Below are positions 3,777-63,475 of a DNA stretch of 64,000 nt, one piece after another. Numbering within the stretch: the stretch's first letter is position 1; the number at the start of each line of letters is the position of its first letter. This DNA comes from Ruficoccus sp. ZRK36. GTDB lineage: Bacteria; Verrucomicrobiota; Verrucomicrobiia; Opitutales; Cerasicoccaceae. The notes beneath the pieces were generated by a model, which ran no database searches, was not told the DNA's origin, and worked only from the letters and a program-made list of their open reading frames with translations. The stretch covers positions 2,614,176 through 2,678,175 of the forward strand of contig NZ_CP080649.1 in the NCBI RefSeq assembly GCF_019603315.1, written 5' to 3'. The position numbers and the translations under genes were made by a program.

Positions 3777-3950
3777 GGCAGGACAGAGTCCTGCACCTGT
3801 GGTTCTTATGTGATACGGTGGTAACCCAGTTTGATGCTGCGGATCGAAAGTGCAGGGTCCGACTGGACCAGCGTTCTTAAAGATAACATTTGGGCAGGCA
3901 CGCAGTGCCGTAGGGGCGGAGCCCCTCACTGTCCGGTCCGGTCACGCACC
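3777..3950 (-). repeat. palindromic modular repeat, copy R1
   Basis: Intergenic block between two minus-strand genes. It contains the hairpin GCAGGAC-aga-GTCCTGC followed by ACCTG (3778-3799), a remnant of the long-hairpin module (GATGCTGCGGATCGAAAGTGCAG then GGTCC-gactGGACC, 3832-3870), and, inverted, the cap GGTGCGTGACC plus GGGGCtccGCCCC followed by TACGGCACTG (3895-3950). The last part is nearly identical to 28519-28573. The long stem itself is missing here. The stop codon of the DUF3817-like gene lies inside the cap. Confidence 0.85.
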
Positions 3951-14542: not shown

Positions 14543-14772
14543 GCACTTGCGATCTTACGGATCACCTCGGCATTTTCAGGAGAAAATGCCATAAACGTAC
14601 ACTGTCACCCGACGAAAAGATTACTTTTTCTCAATGGTGGAGATACCGTTTTGATGCTTTGCTCAGCGATTACCTTAGCCAGCCGACGCTGGCTAAGGTA
14701 ATCGCTGACACGATGCGCAGCATCGAAAGTGCAGCCTGTGGCTGCTGCGGGGGCAGGGGGCGCATAGCCCCC
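14543..14772 (+). repeat. palindromic modular repeat, copy R2
   Basis: Fills the gap between convergent rlmN and the TM2 gene. Order: remnant GATCttacGGATC, hairpin GGCATTTTC-agga-GAAAATGCC (14569-14590), 60 bp of linker, then the long hairpin 14653-14724 (GATGC outer arm, 21-bp perfect inner stem 14663-14708 with variable arm CCTTAGCCAGC/GCTGGCTAAGG and loop CGAC), ATCGAAAGT, hairpin GCAGCC-tgt-GGCTGC (14731-14745) and hairpin GGGGG-cgcatag-CCCCC (14756-14772). Confidence 0.92.
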
Positions 14773-17255: not shown

Positions 17256-17551
17256 ATGCTTCGCATCTGGATGACTCCTCTAAGGCGGAGCCATGGGCAA
17301 CGGCAGTTATCGCCAGCTAACACGAACACCGCTTGCATTCATGGAGCTGAGGCCTACCGCTCAGTGCGTTCGTTTTTCCGGTCACGAACTGCATGTAAAA
17401 AGGTGGCGACCCAGTTTTGATGCTTTGCTCAGCGATTACCTGAACCAGCGATGCTGGTTCAGGTAATCGCTGACACGATGCGCAGCATCGAAAGTGCAGG
17501 GTCCGGCTGGACCAGCAATCTGCCTGCTGAGGGTTCGGGCTGCATAAGCCC
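17232..17551 (+). repeat. palindromic modular repeat, copy R3
   Basis: Covers the 305-bp gap between convergent nth and the lyase. A train of small hairpins GCAGGGC-aa-GCCCTGC, GATGC-ttc-GCATC and GACTC...GCGGAGcC (17233-17294) is arranged as at 58613-58676. The long hairpin spans 17419-17489, with a 21-bp perfect stem 17429-17473 (variable arm CCTGAACCAGC/GCTGGTTCAGG, loop GAT), then ATCGAAAGTGCAG, GGTCC...GGACC with CAGCAATCTGCCTGCTG, hairpin GGGCT-gcata-AGCCC and an A-run ending the copy. Confidence 0.93.
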
Positions 17552-28518: not shown

Positions 28519-28806
28519 GGTGCGTGACCGCACAGGACATTGAGGGGCTCGGCCCCTACGGCACTGTGTGCCTACCCCCTATCATTGCTCACTTACCGTA
28601 ATCGCTGAGCAAAGCATCCAAACGGAAGCACCACCCCGGTAAGCCTTCGCACCTCATTTAGCAGAAGCAATCGTCTCTGTTGCTGGGGCTCCACGTCAGG
28701 AGATACCTCAATAACGATTAAGGGCTTGTGCATCGCACAAGCCCTTAATCGAAAGTGCAGGCTCCGCCTGCTGCGGGTCTGGGCTGCATAAGCCCAGAAA
28801 GAAAAA
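28519..28806 (+). repeat. palindromic modular repeat, copy R4
   Basis: Fills the 297-bp gap between convergent hemD and pntB. Order: cap GTGCG-tgac-CGCAC (28520-28533), GGACATTGA, hairpin GGGGC-tcg-GCCCC, TACGGCACTG; an inverted lone arm of the long hairpin at 28599-28619 (rc of GGATGCTTTGCTCAGCG); linker; a 17-bp perfect stem 28715-28751 (AAGGGCTTGTGC/GCACAAGCCCTT, loop ATC) then ATCGAAAGT, hairpin GCAGGC-tcc-GCCTGC, and hairpin GGGCT-gcata-AGCCC with a trailing A-run. Confidence 0.9.
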
Positions 28807-35837: not shown

Positions 35838-36595
35838 CGTCCCAGCGCAGCTACTTGTTTCGCCTTCAGCGCTGGTGGCATTCCCCGGTGGCGCGCCTGG
35901 CCTGTGTGCTGGGGGTAGGGGTGCACCTGGCGGGCTTTTTGCTCTTTCGGGTGACGGCCCGGCCCGTCAGCGCAGAGGAGATTCCGCAGCCGTTTATCGT
36001 TTGGAATGGTCCCGACCATGGCGTGCAGAGCGAGATCCGCCGTGAGCAGTCGCTGCTGCTCGACTCCGAGGCGCTCTTTTTGCCGACTACGCTTAACGCC
36101 CGTGGAGTTCAGGGAACACAGCGCGTGCTCTCTCCCGGCGCAGCCTTACTGGAGATGGATACGCCGCTGCCGCTGGTGATGAATCTATCCTGGGGAGGGC
36201 AGGGCGATGGCAGCCAGGGTCCGCTTAATTTTAACGACCTGCTGACGCGCTATGCGCGCGATTCCTTTACGACCTACGGGCAGACTGCTCCGCCCCCGCC
36301 GCCTCTGGTGACGAAGCCGGATGCTTATCTGGTCGAGGTGCGGGATGCCAGCACGGGTCGTCTGGTGGGGGAGTTTCCGCTTGATCCGGGTGAGGCCGTG
36401 CTGCCCAGCCCCGGCGAGCTCGAAGCCCTGGAGTTTATGCTCTACCGCTCGGCAGCGGGTAATGTCGGCTCACTCTTGCCCTTGAGCCAGGCCTCTGCCG
36501 GTGAGACGGGCCGCGCCTGGGCCCGCCTGATCGAAAGTGCAGGCTGGGAGCTGGAGCTGCCGCAGGGCTACTATCGCCTCGTCGTTAGCCCCTGA
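35834..36595 (+). CDS. TonB-like partner in the ExbBD operon, unclassified
   Basis: A 253-residue protein with a single membrane segment near residues 19-38 (LACVLGVGVHLAGFLLFRVTA), a basic N-terminus and a periplasmic domain rich in Pro and Gly, topologically like an energy transducer. It does not show a clear TonB C-terminal domain; residues 80-180 carry YARDSFTTYGQTAPPPPPLVTKPDAYLVEVRDASTGRLVGEF. Its start overlaps exbD by 4 bp, so stoichiometric production with ExbBD is likely. Its role is inferred from position only. A 16-nt stretch near the 3' end matches the intergenic repeat consensus. Confidence 0.65.
   Translation: MTSQRSYLFRLQRWWHSPVARLACVLGVGVHLAGFLLFRVTARPVSAEEIPQPFIVWNGPDHGVQSEIRREQSLLLDSEALFLPTTLNARGVQGTQRVLSPGAALLEMDTPLPLVMNLSWGGQGDGSQGPLNFNDLLTRYARDSFTTYGQTAPPPPPLVTKPDAYLVEVRDASTGRLVGEFPLDPGEAVLPSPGELEALEFMLYRSAAGNVGSLLPLSQASAGETGRAWARLIESAGWELELPQGYYRLVVSP
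36531..36546 (+). other. short repeat match inside a coding sequence
   Basis: The bases ATCGAAAGTGCAGGCT inside the TonB-like gene are identical to a 16-nt part of the palindromic repeats (for example in R4). The surrounding bases do not form the adjoining hairpins fully, so it may be coincidence, or a repeat fragment captured by the reading frame. Confidence 0.35.
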
Positions 36596-40918: not shown

Positions 40919-41184
40919 AGTACGGCTTTTTGCGGGGCTACGCGCCCCGCACCCGCGACGGAGTGCCTCCGTTGGCATTGATGGGGCTATGCCCCATCGC
41001 TCCTTGCCGTCGCTGCCCCAATAGCGGATTGTTCGCATTCATTGGGACGATCAGTTTTTATGTTTGTCATCTCAGCGATTAGTGAAAGCAGCTTCGCTGC
41101 TTTCACTAATCGCTGACACGATGCGTAGCATCGAAAGTGCAGCCTTGGCTGCCGCGGGGTCTGGGGGTGCGTAGCCCCCAGAAG
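40919..41184 (+). repeat. palindromic modular repeat, copy R5
   Basis: Fills most of the 339-bp gap between lpxB and the U32 gene. It has GCGGGGC-tacgc-GCCCCGC (40932-40950), ACGGAG-tgc-CTCCGT, ATGGGGC-tat-GCCCCAT (40981-40997), the sequence GTTCGCATTCATTGGGACGA, then the 21-bp perfect stem 41072-41116 (variable arm GTGAAAGCAGC/GCTGCTTTCAC, loop TTC), ATCGAAAGT, GCAGCC-tt-GGCTGC and CTGGGGG-tgcgtag-CCCCCAG. From 40981 on it parallels copy R6. Confidence 0.93.
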
Positions 41185-46632: not shown

Positions 46633-47133
46633 ATGGTTTTTAACGACACACGATTTCGCACCCCGATGATTTACGACCAACTGAACCAACAGGCCCTCTA
46701 CCGCAACTGCCATCCCGGCCTCGATCTGGCTTTCGATTACCTGCTCAGCTTCGACCCGAAGACCCCCGACGGCCGTGTCGATCTGGACGGTGACAATGTC
46801 TTTGCCCTCGTGCAGACCTACACCACCGGACCGGCTCCGGAGCGTAAGTTTGAGGCGCACCACACCTATGTGGACCTGCAGTACACGATCAGCGGTGAGG
46901 AGATCATCTACCATGGCTCGTTGGGGACGCTGACCGAGACTGAGCCCTACGATGCCGAGCGCGACGTGGTGTTTTTCAAGGGTGCGGCCGATCAGGCGCT
47001 CCACATGACGCCGGGGATGTTCTGCGTACTCTTCCCGCAGGACGGCCATATGCCCGGCTGTTCCCTCAAGGCCGACAGCGAGATCCGCAAGATCGTGATC
47101 AAGCTGAAGTGGAGTGCCTCCACTGGCAAATGA
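46633..47133 (+). CDS. YhcH/YjgK/YiaL family beta-barrel protein
   Basis: A 166-residue protein of the YhcH (DUF386) family, cupin-like proteins found with sialic acid and other sugar-acid catabolism. Conserved pieces are FALVQTYTT...FEAHHTYVDLQYTISGEE and FFKGAADQALHMTPGMFCVLFPQDGHMPG, which contain the probable metal ligands His (HHTYVDLQ and DGHMPG) and Glu. Function may be anomer or sugar-acid handling. ATG at 46633 follows a weak GGAGA. The stop codon overlaps the next palindrome (ATGGGGC), and its transcript ends in the repeat facing the IclR gene. Confidence 0.85.
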   Translation: MVFNDTRFRTPMIYDQLNQQALYRNCHPGLDLAFDYLLSFDPKTPDGRVDLDGDNVFALVQTYTTGPAPERKFEAHHTYVDLQYTISGEEIIYHGSLGTLTETEPYDAERDVVFFKGAADQALHMTPGMFCVLFPQDGHMPGCSLKADSEIRKIVIKLKWSASTGK

Positions 47134-47336
47134 TGGGGCTCCGCCCCATCGCTCACTACAGTCGCTGCCCCAATCGCAGATCGTTCGCATTCATTGGGAC
47201 GACCCAGTTTTTGATGCTTTGCTCAGCGATTACTTAAACCAGCAATGCTGGTTTAAGTAATCGCTGACACGATGCGCAGCATCGAAAGTGCAGCCTTCGG
47301 CTGCCGCGGGTGCGGGGTGCGCAGCCCCGCGAAAAA
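47133..47336 (+). repeat. palindromic modular repeat, copy R6 (best complete copy)
   Basis: Fills the gap between convergent yhcH and iclR genes. Order: ATGGGGC-tcc-GCCCCAT (47133-47149), GTCGCTGCCCCAAT, GTTCGCATTCATTGGGACGA, CCCAGTTTTT, long hairpin 47213-47284 with 21-bp perfect stem 47223-47267 (variable arm CTTAAACCAGC/GCTGGTTTAAG, loop AAT), ATCGAAAGT, GCAGCC-ttc-GGCTGC (47290-47304), GCGGGG-tgcgcag-CCCCGC (47312-47330), A-run. The block 47133-47330 matches 40981-41181 in order and spacing. Confidence 0.94.
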
Positions 47337-47338
47337 AC

Positions 47339-48079
47339 CTATCCCCCCAGACGATCGCGGGCGCTTTCGAGCAGGCGGGTCAGCTGCTCTCGTTTGTGCT
47401 CGCAGGCCTCTTGTGTGAGGCAAAAGAATACGCTGCCGAGCTGCTCGCCGTGACGGTAAGCAATCGCCATGCGGCAGACGCCGGGGCGGCTGCGTGAGGT
47501 GTCGATGAGCACGTTTCCGGGGCCGCGGGCCGCGCTCAGGCTCGCCTCAAAATTATCCCCCTCGCCGAATGTGCAGTGCGGGCCGTCCAGATGACGCTGG
47601 CGCTCCGCCGACGGAAGTTGCTCCAGAATGGCGAGCGCACCGGCGTGGTCAGGCTCGAAGTGCAGGAGCTGTCCGGTGCCGAGGATGCGGATGCCCCCCT
47701 CGACCGAGCGCGAACAGAGCGCGTCGATCCGGTCTTCGCCCAGCAGGGTGATGCAGGCGGACTCGTGTGCCTCCTGGGTGAGTCGGTCCAGCACGCGCTG
47801 GGCTGTGTCTGCGAGGGTGGGGCGCGCGGCGCTCAGATACGGCCCCCAGGCCCGTACCTGCTGGGTGATCCGGTAGCCGGTGTCGGCATCGCGCTCCAGG
47901 TAGCCGTAGCCCTCCAATGCCTTCAGGATGCGCGTGAGGGTCGAGTCCTGCACGCCCGGCAGGGCATCCCGCAACTCGCCAAAGCGCAGGGGGCCGCCGC
48001 CCGAGCGTATCAGGTGGTCGAGGAGGGCCAGCCCGCGATCAAGCGCGGGGAGGCCCGGTTTAGAAGTCGATTTAAGCAT
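47339..48079 (-). CDS. IclR-family transcription regulator
   Basis: A 246-residue regulator. N-terminal winged helix: LPALDRGLALLDHLIRSGGGPLRFGELRDALPGVQDSTLTRILKALEGYGYLERDADTGYRI; the C-terminal effector domain includes AHESACITLLGEDRIDALC and RPGVCRMAIAYRHGEQLGSVFFC. Its start overlaps the sulfatase stop (TGATG at 48077-48081), so the two are translationally coupled and it should regulate the sulfatase. IclR regulators usually sense small carboxylic or aromatic acids, or sugar-acid intermediates. Confidence 0.87.
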   Translation of the reverse strand: MLKSTSKPGLPALDRGLALLDHLIRSGGGPLRFGELRDALPGVQDSTLTRILKALEGYGYLERDADTGYRITQQVRAWGPYLSAARPTLADTAQRVLDRLTQEAHESACITLLGEDRIDALCSRSVEGGIRILGTGQLLHFEPDHAGALAILEQLPSAERQRHLDGPHCTFGEGDNFEASLSAARGPGNVLIDTSRSRPGVCRMAIAYRHGEQLGSVFFCLTQEACEHKREQLTRLLESARDRLGG

Positions 48080-54529: not shown

Positions 54530-54825
54530 TTGCGGGCTTACGCAGCCCGCACTCGCGGCAGGCAGATTGCTGGTCCAGCCGGACTCTGCACTTTCGATGC
54601 AATGCATCGTGTCAACGATTAGCGAAAACAGCAAAGCTGTTTTCGCTAATCGTTGAAGATGGGGACATTAAAACCGGACTGCCCGAGTTTACGCATGATC
54701 CCGTGTCTAACGAATAGCTTCATGGCATTTTCTCCTGAAAATGCCAAGGTGATCCAAAGGATCACAGGTGCAGGACTTCGTCCTGCCGGGGCGGAGCGCC
54801 ATCAGTGCCAGCGGGGGCACCCCGC
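54530..54825 (-). repeat. palindromic modular repeat, copy R7
   Basis: Fills the 329-bp gap between ilvA and fbaB, in reverse orientation. It contains GCGGGCTtacgcAGCCCGC, CAGATTGCTGGTCCAGCC (inverted), the 21-bp perfect stem 54612-54656 (GCGAAAACAGC/GCTGTTTTCGC, loop AAA). Here the outer part of the stem is CAACGATTA/TAATCGTTG, a compensated G:C to A:T change. Further: GGCATTTTC-tcct-GAAAATGCC (54724-54745), GTGATCC-aaa-GGATCAC (54749-54765), GCAGGAC-ttc-GTCCTGC (54770-54786) and GCGGGG-gca-CCCCGC (54811-54825), whose edge supplies the fbaB stop codon. Confidence 0.92.
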
Positions 54826-58312: not shown

Positions 58313-58832
58313 GGGGGCTCCGCCCCTACGCTCCTTTCAGTCGCTACCCCTGAACACGCAGAAAGAATGCTGGTCCAGCCGGTCCTTTCGATACTGCGCA
58401 TCGTGCCAGCGATTAGTCAAAACAGATGCTCTGCTTTCAACAATCGCTGAGATGGCAAACCTCAAAACTGGGTGCCACCTTTGGGAGAAGTATTTGGTGC
58501 TGAGAAAAGGATACGCTTTCTTGGCATTTCTCCATGAAATGCCAAGGCGATGCGGAGCATCACAGGTGCAGGACTATGTCCTGGCGGGGCAGCGAACGAT
58601 GGGGCAGAGCCCCAAGGACAGAGTCCTTGACCTGTGATCCTTTGGATCACTGATGACTCTGCTAAGGCGGAGTCATGGGCAACAGTGATTGACGCCAACT
58701 CAAACGAACCTCGTATGGAATCACTTGCGCAAGGCGTAAAACTTGTCGGCAAATGACCATTGACTGCGAGCGATGGGGCGGAGCCCCATCAATGCTGCTC
58801 CAGCCGGAGTGTCCAGTGCGGTCACGCACTTT
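58289..58832. repeat. palindromic modular repeat, copy R8 (multi-module)
   Basis: Occupies the 580-bp gap between the exonuclease and gpmA. Modules: cap GTGCG-tgac-CGCAC (58289-58302); GGGGC-tcc-GCCCC; inverted GCTGGTCCAGCCGGTCC; a decayed long hairpin (58407-58450, CAGCGATTA...AATCGCTG, interior mismatched); GGCATTTC-tccat-GAAATGCC; GATGC-gga-GCATC; GCAGGAC-tat-GTCCTG; AAGGAC-aga-GTCCTT; GTGATCC-ttt-GGATCAC; GACTCtgc...GCGGAGTC; GATGGGGC-gga-GCCCCATC (58772-58790); and an inverted cap GTGCG-gtca-CGCAC (58817-58830). The gap holds no other feature I recognise. Confidence 0.9.
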
Positions 58833-63389: not shown

Positions 63390-63475
63390 CCGCACAGGAC
63401 ACTCCGGCTGGAGCAGCATTGAAAGTGCAGGCTCTGCCTGCCGCGGGTGCGGGGCGCGGAGCCCCGCAAAAAAAA
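63382..63475 (+). repeat. palindromic modular repeat, copy R9
   Basis: Fills the gap between convergent pduO-type and menH genes. Cap GTGCG-tgac-CGCAC (63382-63395), GGACA, CTCC-ggct-GGAG, CAGCATTGAAAGT, GCAGGC-tct-GCCTGC (63427-63441), GCGGGGC-gcgga-GCCCCGC (63449-63467), then A-run. It lacks the long hairpin; the outer and inner modules appear joined directly. Confidence 0.9.

Follow-up and report, generated by a model that had tools for sequence, protein, structure and literature searches.

A REPIN-like palindromic repeat, dispersed at gene ends in one Verrucomicrobiota genus, with hairpin arms that change in matched pairs

The window analyzed here is a stretch of 64,000 nucleotides from the two-contig, 3.76-Mb genome of Ruficoccus sp. 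ZRK36 (G000), and it carries copies of a repeat family that is dispersed between genes in the genomes of one Verrucomicrobiota genus, occurs in all four genus genomes searched, and is rare outside. The anatomy of the repeat, its copy number, its place beside the stop codons of converging genes, its presence throughout the genus, and the near-perfect pairing of its changing stems are directly supported by the genomes compared. The explanation that we prefer, and to which we give about even weight for and against, is that the element is a REP/REPIN-like dispersed palindromic gene-end repeat, that the paired changes in its main hairpin, H1, arise mainly by template switching, and that the flanks and the outer stem are recognition sequences of a putative mobilizing protein. 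DNA synthesis at the palindrome would switch template and thereby copy a mutation of one arm into the other arm, and such a switch would also flip the loop and gain or lose whole base pairs, while the putative protein that recognizes the conserved flanks and outer stem would have mobilized the repeat and may still do so.

The unit at 47213 and others built like it, which we call A units, read from the inner to the outer end as GGTGGCGACCCAGTTTTGATGC, a short spacer, H1, CACGATGC-GNA-GCATCG-AAAGTGCAG, the hairpin H3 (GCAG..CTGC), a GC-rich hairpin H4, often an A-run, and then the neighbouring gene (Table 1). H1 is a 21-bp stem with, as a rule, a loop of 3 nt. On its outer side it is adjoined by CACGATGCGNAGCATCGAAAGTGCAG, followed by two GC hairpins and usually by the stop codon of a converging gene; at 47213 the stop codon of a minus-strand ORF (47339-48079 in the ORF list) directly adjoins the unit. 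The two inner pairs of H3 vary among copies in matched form. The first-pass annotation had described five long hairpins in the window, and all five are present, with 21-22 complementary base pairs and loops of 1-4 nt; the starts it gave are those of the stem in two of them and lie about 10 nt outside it in the other three. It had correctly read the compensated outer stem of the copy at 54612 and the decay of a sixth copy, which has 4 mismatches in the pairing used, and had rightly set apart the hairpin at 28715 as a different one with the same right flank. The motif CAGCGATTA has 25 matches in the window at ≤1 mismatch as against 11.6 expected, and none of 100 shuffles reached 25. The pairing TTTTGATGC/GCATCGAAA was tried as an extra conserved helix and rejected: it is paired in 91.4% of its cells, but none of its pairs is doubly changed and shuffled alignments score as well.

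Table 1. Repeat units, hairpins, and core motifs in the window
Feature	Position	Strand	Basis
A unit at 47213 (inner end, H1, core, H3, H4, A-run)	47193..47338	+	sequence, ORF list
H1 hairpin of this unit, TCAGCGATTACTTAAACCAGC-AAT-GCTGGTTTAAGTAATCGCTGA	47223..47267	+	sequence; pairs counted
Conserved core CGATGCGCAGCATCGAAAGTGCAG, including short hairpin CGATGC/GCATCG	47270..47293	+	sequence and genome motif counts
H3, GCAGCC-TTC-GGCTGC	47290..47304	+	sequence
H4, GC-rich hairpin at the end of the neighbouring gene	47312..47330	+	read by eye
H1 of another A unit; core motif 14722-14734	14663..14708	+	
H1 of another A unit; core motif 17487-17499; GGTCCGGCTGGACCAGC palindrome after core	17429..17473	+	
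H1 of another A unit; core motif 41130-41142	41072..41116	+	
H1 of A unit with compensated outer stem CAACGATTA/TAATCGTTG; core motif 54586-54598	54612..54656	-	
Decayed H1	58407..58449	-	
B-type hairpin, perfect 17-bp stem fused directly to CGAAAGTGCAG; shared motif 28748-28760	28715..28751	+	
Core motif ATCGAAAGTGCAG, without long perfect hairpin	3843..3855	+	
Core motif, without long perfect hairpin	36530..36542	+	
Core motif with one mismatch, without long perfect hairpin	63418..63430	+	

Many A units face a sister unit, B, that carries another hairpin, and many other A units stand alone. A B unit facing A was aligned in 22 stretches of ZRK36 and of the MAG JB024 (G001), chosen by a match of >215 nt to the stretch at L038. 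In these the outer end of B is the same as that of A, and a different hairpin is joined directly to CGAAAGTGCAG; the inner end of B reads as related to GGTGGCGACC, the B-A centre differs between copies, and one unit of the facing doublet has a decayed B hairpin. Among the 33 B hairpins listed, of which one (from G005) is unlike a B hairpin, 6 are perfect, and 54 T-G cells lie in the outward strand at largely fixed places, a count obtained by a search that penalized T-G less than other mismatches and therefore favours the listing of T-G hairpins. In L020, L063, L106, L109, and L119, for example, the outward strand retains two adjacent T-G pairs, and the base pairs that flank them vary in matched form.

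Other sequences recur in or near the units. In some units (window 17500-17520 and 54570-54590) the core is separated from H3/H4 by an inserted palindrome, GGTCCGGCTGGACCAGC. At about 40980-41020 and at 47132-47170 the position expected for a B unit is taken by a gene-end module made up of ATGGGGCT-CCGCCCCATCGCTC and then TCGCTGCCCC. A companion palindrome, GGCATTTTCTCCTGAAAATGCC (window 54724-54745), has 24 matches genome-wide when ≤3 mismatches are allowed; 15 of these are exact, and one variant, GACATTTTCTCCTGAAAATGTC, is altered on both sides. At L036 (about 1440-1515) an A unit of ZRK36 is without H1 and without one GATGC copy, as if these had been lost between direct repeats.

The element is found well beyond the window: the core GCATCGAAAGTGCAG has 64 places at ≤1 mismatch in the ZRK36 genome, and the copies form a dispersed intergenic family. 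Allowing ≤3 mismatches, ACACGATGCGNAGCATCGAAAGTGCAG was found in 6 of 54 genomes, namely, the four of the genus (60 matches in ZRK36, 38 in JB024, 5 in G002, and 3 in 5_bin.45, which is G003) and 2 of the 6 other genomes of the family (3 in Co_bin.226, which is G005, and 1 in G009), and in none of the 44 genomes of other families. A 331-bp stretch around L038 of ZRK36 matches 51, 46, 39, 26, and 11 places in G000, G001, G002, G003, and G005, respectively, and has no match in the remaining 5 of the 10 genomes searched. When one genome per GTDB species was scanned, a set that may leave ZRK36 itself out, 37 stretches matched the core pattern CGATGCNNNGCATCGAAAGTGCAG. JB024, which is unclassified below phylum, supplied 33 of them, and 5_bin.45 and Co_bin.226 supplied 2 each; all 37 come from records titled Verrucomicrobiota or Verrucomicrobiia. 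Positions 47160-47340 of the window had no match in a plasmid collection, and the core pattern had no exact match in viral contigs. A right neighbour was called for 38 of 47 ZRK36 copies and converges on the unit in 28 of the 38, with a core-to-stop distance of 40-64 nt in 24 of these 28; in the relatives it converges in 24 of 29. Both neighbours were called for 34 ZRK36 copies, of which 22 lie between converging genes. Single neighbour cases in these counts may be wrong because the ORFs were called by a simple script.

The pairing of H1 was examined in 113 copies (48 from ZRK36, 42 from JB024, 15 from G002, and 8 from G003), obtained from 169 candidates of which 56 were merged. They were gathered from anchors in the right flank, except for one batch whose pattern takes in part of the 3' arm, and copies without H1 or below the threshold of the pairing score were dropped from all pair counts, so that the counts are biased towards high pairing. 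Watson-Crick pairs make up 2315 of the 2379 stem cells, and the remaining 64 are 24 G-T, 8 A-C, and 32 others. In the register used, the stem is perfect in 38 copies from ZRK36, 23 from JB024, 12 from G002, and 3 from G003. When the 36 of the 48 ZRK36 copies that are 45-nt hairpins were aligned, 99.3% of the cells paired as against 85.1% in shuffled alignments, and 118 cells were doubly changed as against 23.5, values that none of 500 shuffles reached; this alignment tests 27 pairs, which are those of H1 and of a short second hairpin. Sliding the partner by 1-3 columns lowered the pairing to 23-46%. Changes on both sides occur at 16 of the 21 H1 pairs, and the 36 hairpins have 35 distinct stems. 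Measured against the commonest pair, 53 of the 118 double changes are transition-type and 65 are transversion-type, counted as cells and not as events.

The standard pairs of these 36 H1 copies covary as those of a structured RNA do, but the share of G-U in H1 is not like that of known RNA helices. G-T makes up 1.0% of the H1 pairs in the 113 copies (24/2379) as against 6.5% (41/631) in tRNA stems of the same genome (p ~1e-13), where the reference is the 631 pairs bracketed in 30 of 45 tRNA hits by ARAGORN, which brackets standard pairs alone. The B hairpins differ from H1 in this respect. G-T exceeds A-C in H1 by 24 to 8, with a p of 0.007 if the cells were independent, which they are not; several of these G-T and A-C cells are common to related JB024 copies, and none of the p-values is strict because the copies are related. 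A purine-purine mismatch near the loop is common to six JB024 copies, being G-G in five and A-G in one.

Template switching has been reported to yield homogenization of the arms and inversion of the spacer together (PMC8604942) and has been argued to create compensatory hairpin changes in one event (PMC8794818). Among 86 copies with 45-nt hairpins, copy pairs that are one stem position apart were compensated in 11 of 12 cases in ZRK36, 9 of 11 in G002, 11 of 28 in JB024, and 0 of 2 in G003. The ratio of compensated to uncompensated private pair types was 8:3 in ZRK36, 9:7 in JB024, 6:2 in G002, and 4:5 in G003. The loops were compared after leaving out the 7 of the 113 copies whose hairpin length is even. 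Of 73 within-species pairs at a stem distance ≤1, 16 had reverse-complement loops, 13 had identical loops, 1 had loops that were plain complements, and none had reversed loops; shuffling of loops within species gave a mean of 4.0 reverse complements with none of 5000 shuffles reaching 16. The 16 pairs with identical stems (distance 0) had 1 reverse-complement loop and 5 identical loops, no more than in shuffles. The same test on an earlier set of 112 copies, which had merged some distinct places with equal hairpins (e.g., L099 and L109) and misplaced L153, gave 10 of 57 (p 0.0006). Hairpins of 47 nt with one extra base pair number 4 in ZRK36, 8 in JB024, and 1 in G003; some of them have common ancestry, the stem of L060 is wholly different, and one-sided changes in length are also present (L001 and L024). 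Among the ZRK36 copies the stem is perfect in 31 of 40 with no core mismatch, 3 of 3 with one, 4 of 4 with two, and 0 of 1 with three, and among the JB024 copies with core mismatches it is perfect in 0 of 3.

Fifteen places were displayed for ZRK36 and JB024 together and judged by eye. A unit adjoins the same gene end in ZRK36 and JB024 alike at L003/L105, L013/L106, L022/L107, L073b/L113, and L079/L110, although H1 is lost in ZRK36 at L079/L110 and the hairpin of JB024 at L022/L107 falls at a contig end, where it is unreadable. It is in ZRK36 and missing from the JB024 stretch shown at L010, L041, L052, L071, and L073a, which are not strict empty sites because just one flanking gene aligned. 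The arrangement differs at L028/L114, L036/L115, and L038/L093, the last being a place where the B-A stretch, flanked by orthologous genes, has opposite orientations in the two genomes. Two of the 15 places were left unjudged, L026/L091 because the gene beyond differs and L055/L103 because there was too little sequence. Since there are shared, ZRK36-only, and rearranged places, the family must be old in the genus and must have been gained or lost at places since then; we infer that units have moved. The units at the same gene end in both genomes have stems that differ and are mostly perfect, and therefore the matching of the arms continues after insertion. In JB024, low-complexity filler takes the place of H1 in L107, L112, L125, and L127, at or near contig ends, and looks like an assembly artefact at the hairpin.

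To account for the matched stems, the first-pass annotation had named selection on structure as its leading explanation and self-correction of the palindrome by template switching as the alternative. We favour this alternative as what chiefly produces the paired changes of H1 because G-T and A-C intermediates are few, the double changes are mostly transversion-type, loops are inverted, and insertions are paired; the conserved flanks and outer stem, the T-G pairs kept in B, and the excess of G-T over A-C are what remains in favour of selection on structure. If selection acted on an RNA hairpin, the repeats would be stabilizers or terminators in 3' untranslated RNA and the compensatory mutations would have been selected. 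We think this unlikely: the low share of G-T in comparison with tRNA stems stands against it, transversion-type double changes cannot go via G-U, it does not predict inverted loops or paired insertions, and a scan of 47100-47400 showed no terminator-like site made of H1-H4, in spite of the covariation of H1, the position 40-64 nt from the stop codon in 24 of 28 converging right neighbours, a strong predicted fold of the minus-strand RNA of the 47213 unit (-75.3 kcal/mol, z -7.9), the T-G pairs kept in the outward strand of B, and the 24 to 8 ratio of G-T to A-C, all of which speak for it. An intrinsic terminator as such was rejected, the 2 sites given by that scan being weak and neither of them coming from H1-H4. 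We also doubt that the selection was on a single-stranded DNA hairpin during mobilization, with a protein recognizing the shape of the hairpin and its flanks in the manner of RAYT transposases or integron integrases, and with perfect copies as its recent products. The REPIN-like plan, in which the ends are conserved and the spacer hairpin undergoes compensatory changes (reported for REPINs in PMC3116915), the lineage-specific stem types of G001, G002, and G003, and the presence/absence differences between ZRK36 and JB024 fit such a protein, but Y1_Tnp has no match in G000, G002, or G003, the stretches examined around the fetched Y1 loci of G001 and G005 have no core motif near, and the different, mostly perfect stems of same-site units show that the matching continues after insertion.

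Exchange between copies, in which recombination or gene conversion would redistribute hairpins that are already matched, each copy receiving its paired changes from others instead of forming them on the spot, could explain the hybrid arms in G003 (L151, L156, and L185), the purine-purine subfamily of JB024, and the inverted B-A stretch at L038 and L093. It is highly improbable as the source of the changes, for the 35 distinct stems and the 8 private compensated pair types of ZRK36 would still need an origin and a crossing in the loop would yield mismatched stems, not perfect ones. Quite improbable, too, is a REP-like family without a Y1 transposase that is moved by another enzyme on folded single-stranded DNA, with hairpin flipping and arm copying within the movement cycle, so that the covariation would report a DNA process and not an RNA structure. 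Template switching, which we prefer for H1, is not the whole story. The excess of G-T over A-C in H1 is against a pure DNA reading, G001 and G003 have many single-step differences, and the fixed T-G pairs of the B hairpins count against steady correction of the arms, which should erase T-G. The purine-purine mismatch of the six JB024 copies and the single reverse-complement loop among the 16 pairs with identical stems also speak against it. Either switch tracts are short or there is selection at the places of kept mismatches on a strand that is able to form G-U. Kept mismatches can be functional, since E. coli REPs retain a bulge that their transposase needs (PMC8266576). The flanks would be under sequence selection, and selection on single-stranded DNA or RNA may act besides template switching.

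Across its many copies the family shows strong covariation together with inverted loops and paired insertions, and wobble intermediates are scarce. Compensatory base pairs are usually taken as proof of a selected RNA, and the family is a warning case for covariation-based RNA finding as well as a naturally occurring case in which to study the origin of paired mutations. With it, template switching can be told from selection on structure in a bacterium, a question called long-standing in PMC8794818, where the evidence of that study itself on the maintenance of short stems is called circumstantial. The phylum gains a REP-like family without a known mobilizer; Opitutus terrae, of the same phylum, is named as rich in GTAG repeats (PMC3733652).

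The statement of the first-pass annotation that no described family has this sequence holds for Rfam and for the literature searches made, whereas elements of this type, namely, REP/REPIN doublets showing compensatory changes, have already been described. No Rfam family matched at the gathering threshold anywhere in the window, and the family is without a described match in these searches. Like MITEs, the repeats are short and non-coding, and the outer ends of the B-A stretches are similar and inverted relative to each other; no larger same-ended element was seen in ZRK36 among motifs at ≤1 mismatch, where outward-facing pairs of core motifs are either about 0.2 kb or >5 kb apart and none are at 0.7-5 kb. 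Template-switch (quasipalindrome) mutation resembles what is seen here in arm homogenization and spacer inversion (PMC8604942) and in one-event compensatory changes (PMC8794818), but the reports concern inverted repeats in yeast protein genes and RNA genes, whereas here dozens of dispersed copies per genome jointly show the signature. Moreover, template switching is a process and not a family that the repeat could join.

REPs and REPINs are short palindromic intergenic repeats with dozens of copies, often in inverted doublets and frequent at 3' ends or between converging genes (PMC3733652 and PMC3116915), and REPINs have conserved ends and a spacer hairpin in which compensatory changes are common (PMC3116915). 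The GTAG/CGTC tag was sought at the ends of H1 alone in 113 copies, and the counts on the two strands were 0 and 1 for GTAG and 0 and 0 for CGTC. The suspected RAYT-type Y1 transposase (PF01797) had no match in ZRK36, nor in G002 and G003; 6 of the 10 family genomes have Y1 matches, within the genus G001 alone, where 4 matches lie in three fetched stretches without the core motif near. As a Y1 mobilizer these were rejected when 11 Y1 loci were read, the G001 stretches having no GCATCGAAAG-type core (≤1 substitution) beside unit-like structure; the Y1 loci of G005 and of other genera had stray core matches with 1-3 substitutions. The repeat differs from REP/REPIN also in its longer, near-perfect 21-bp stem and its multi-hairpin units. 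It is like them in being a short palindrome in many intergenic copies at gene ends, 64 by core places at ≤1 mismatch, and in its inverted doublets, of which there are 22 stretches in ZRK36 and JB024, though many units here are a single A. Although it fails the tag and RAYT features, the repeat works most like REPINs and is best called REPIN-like.
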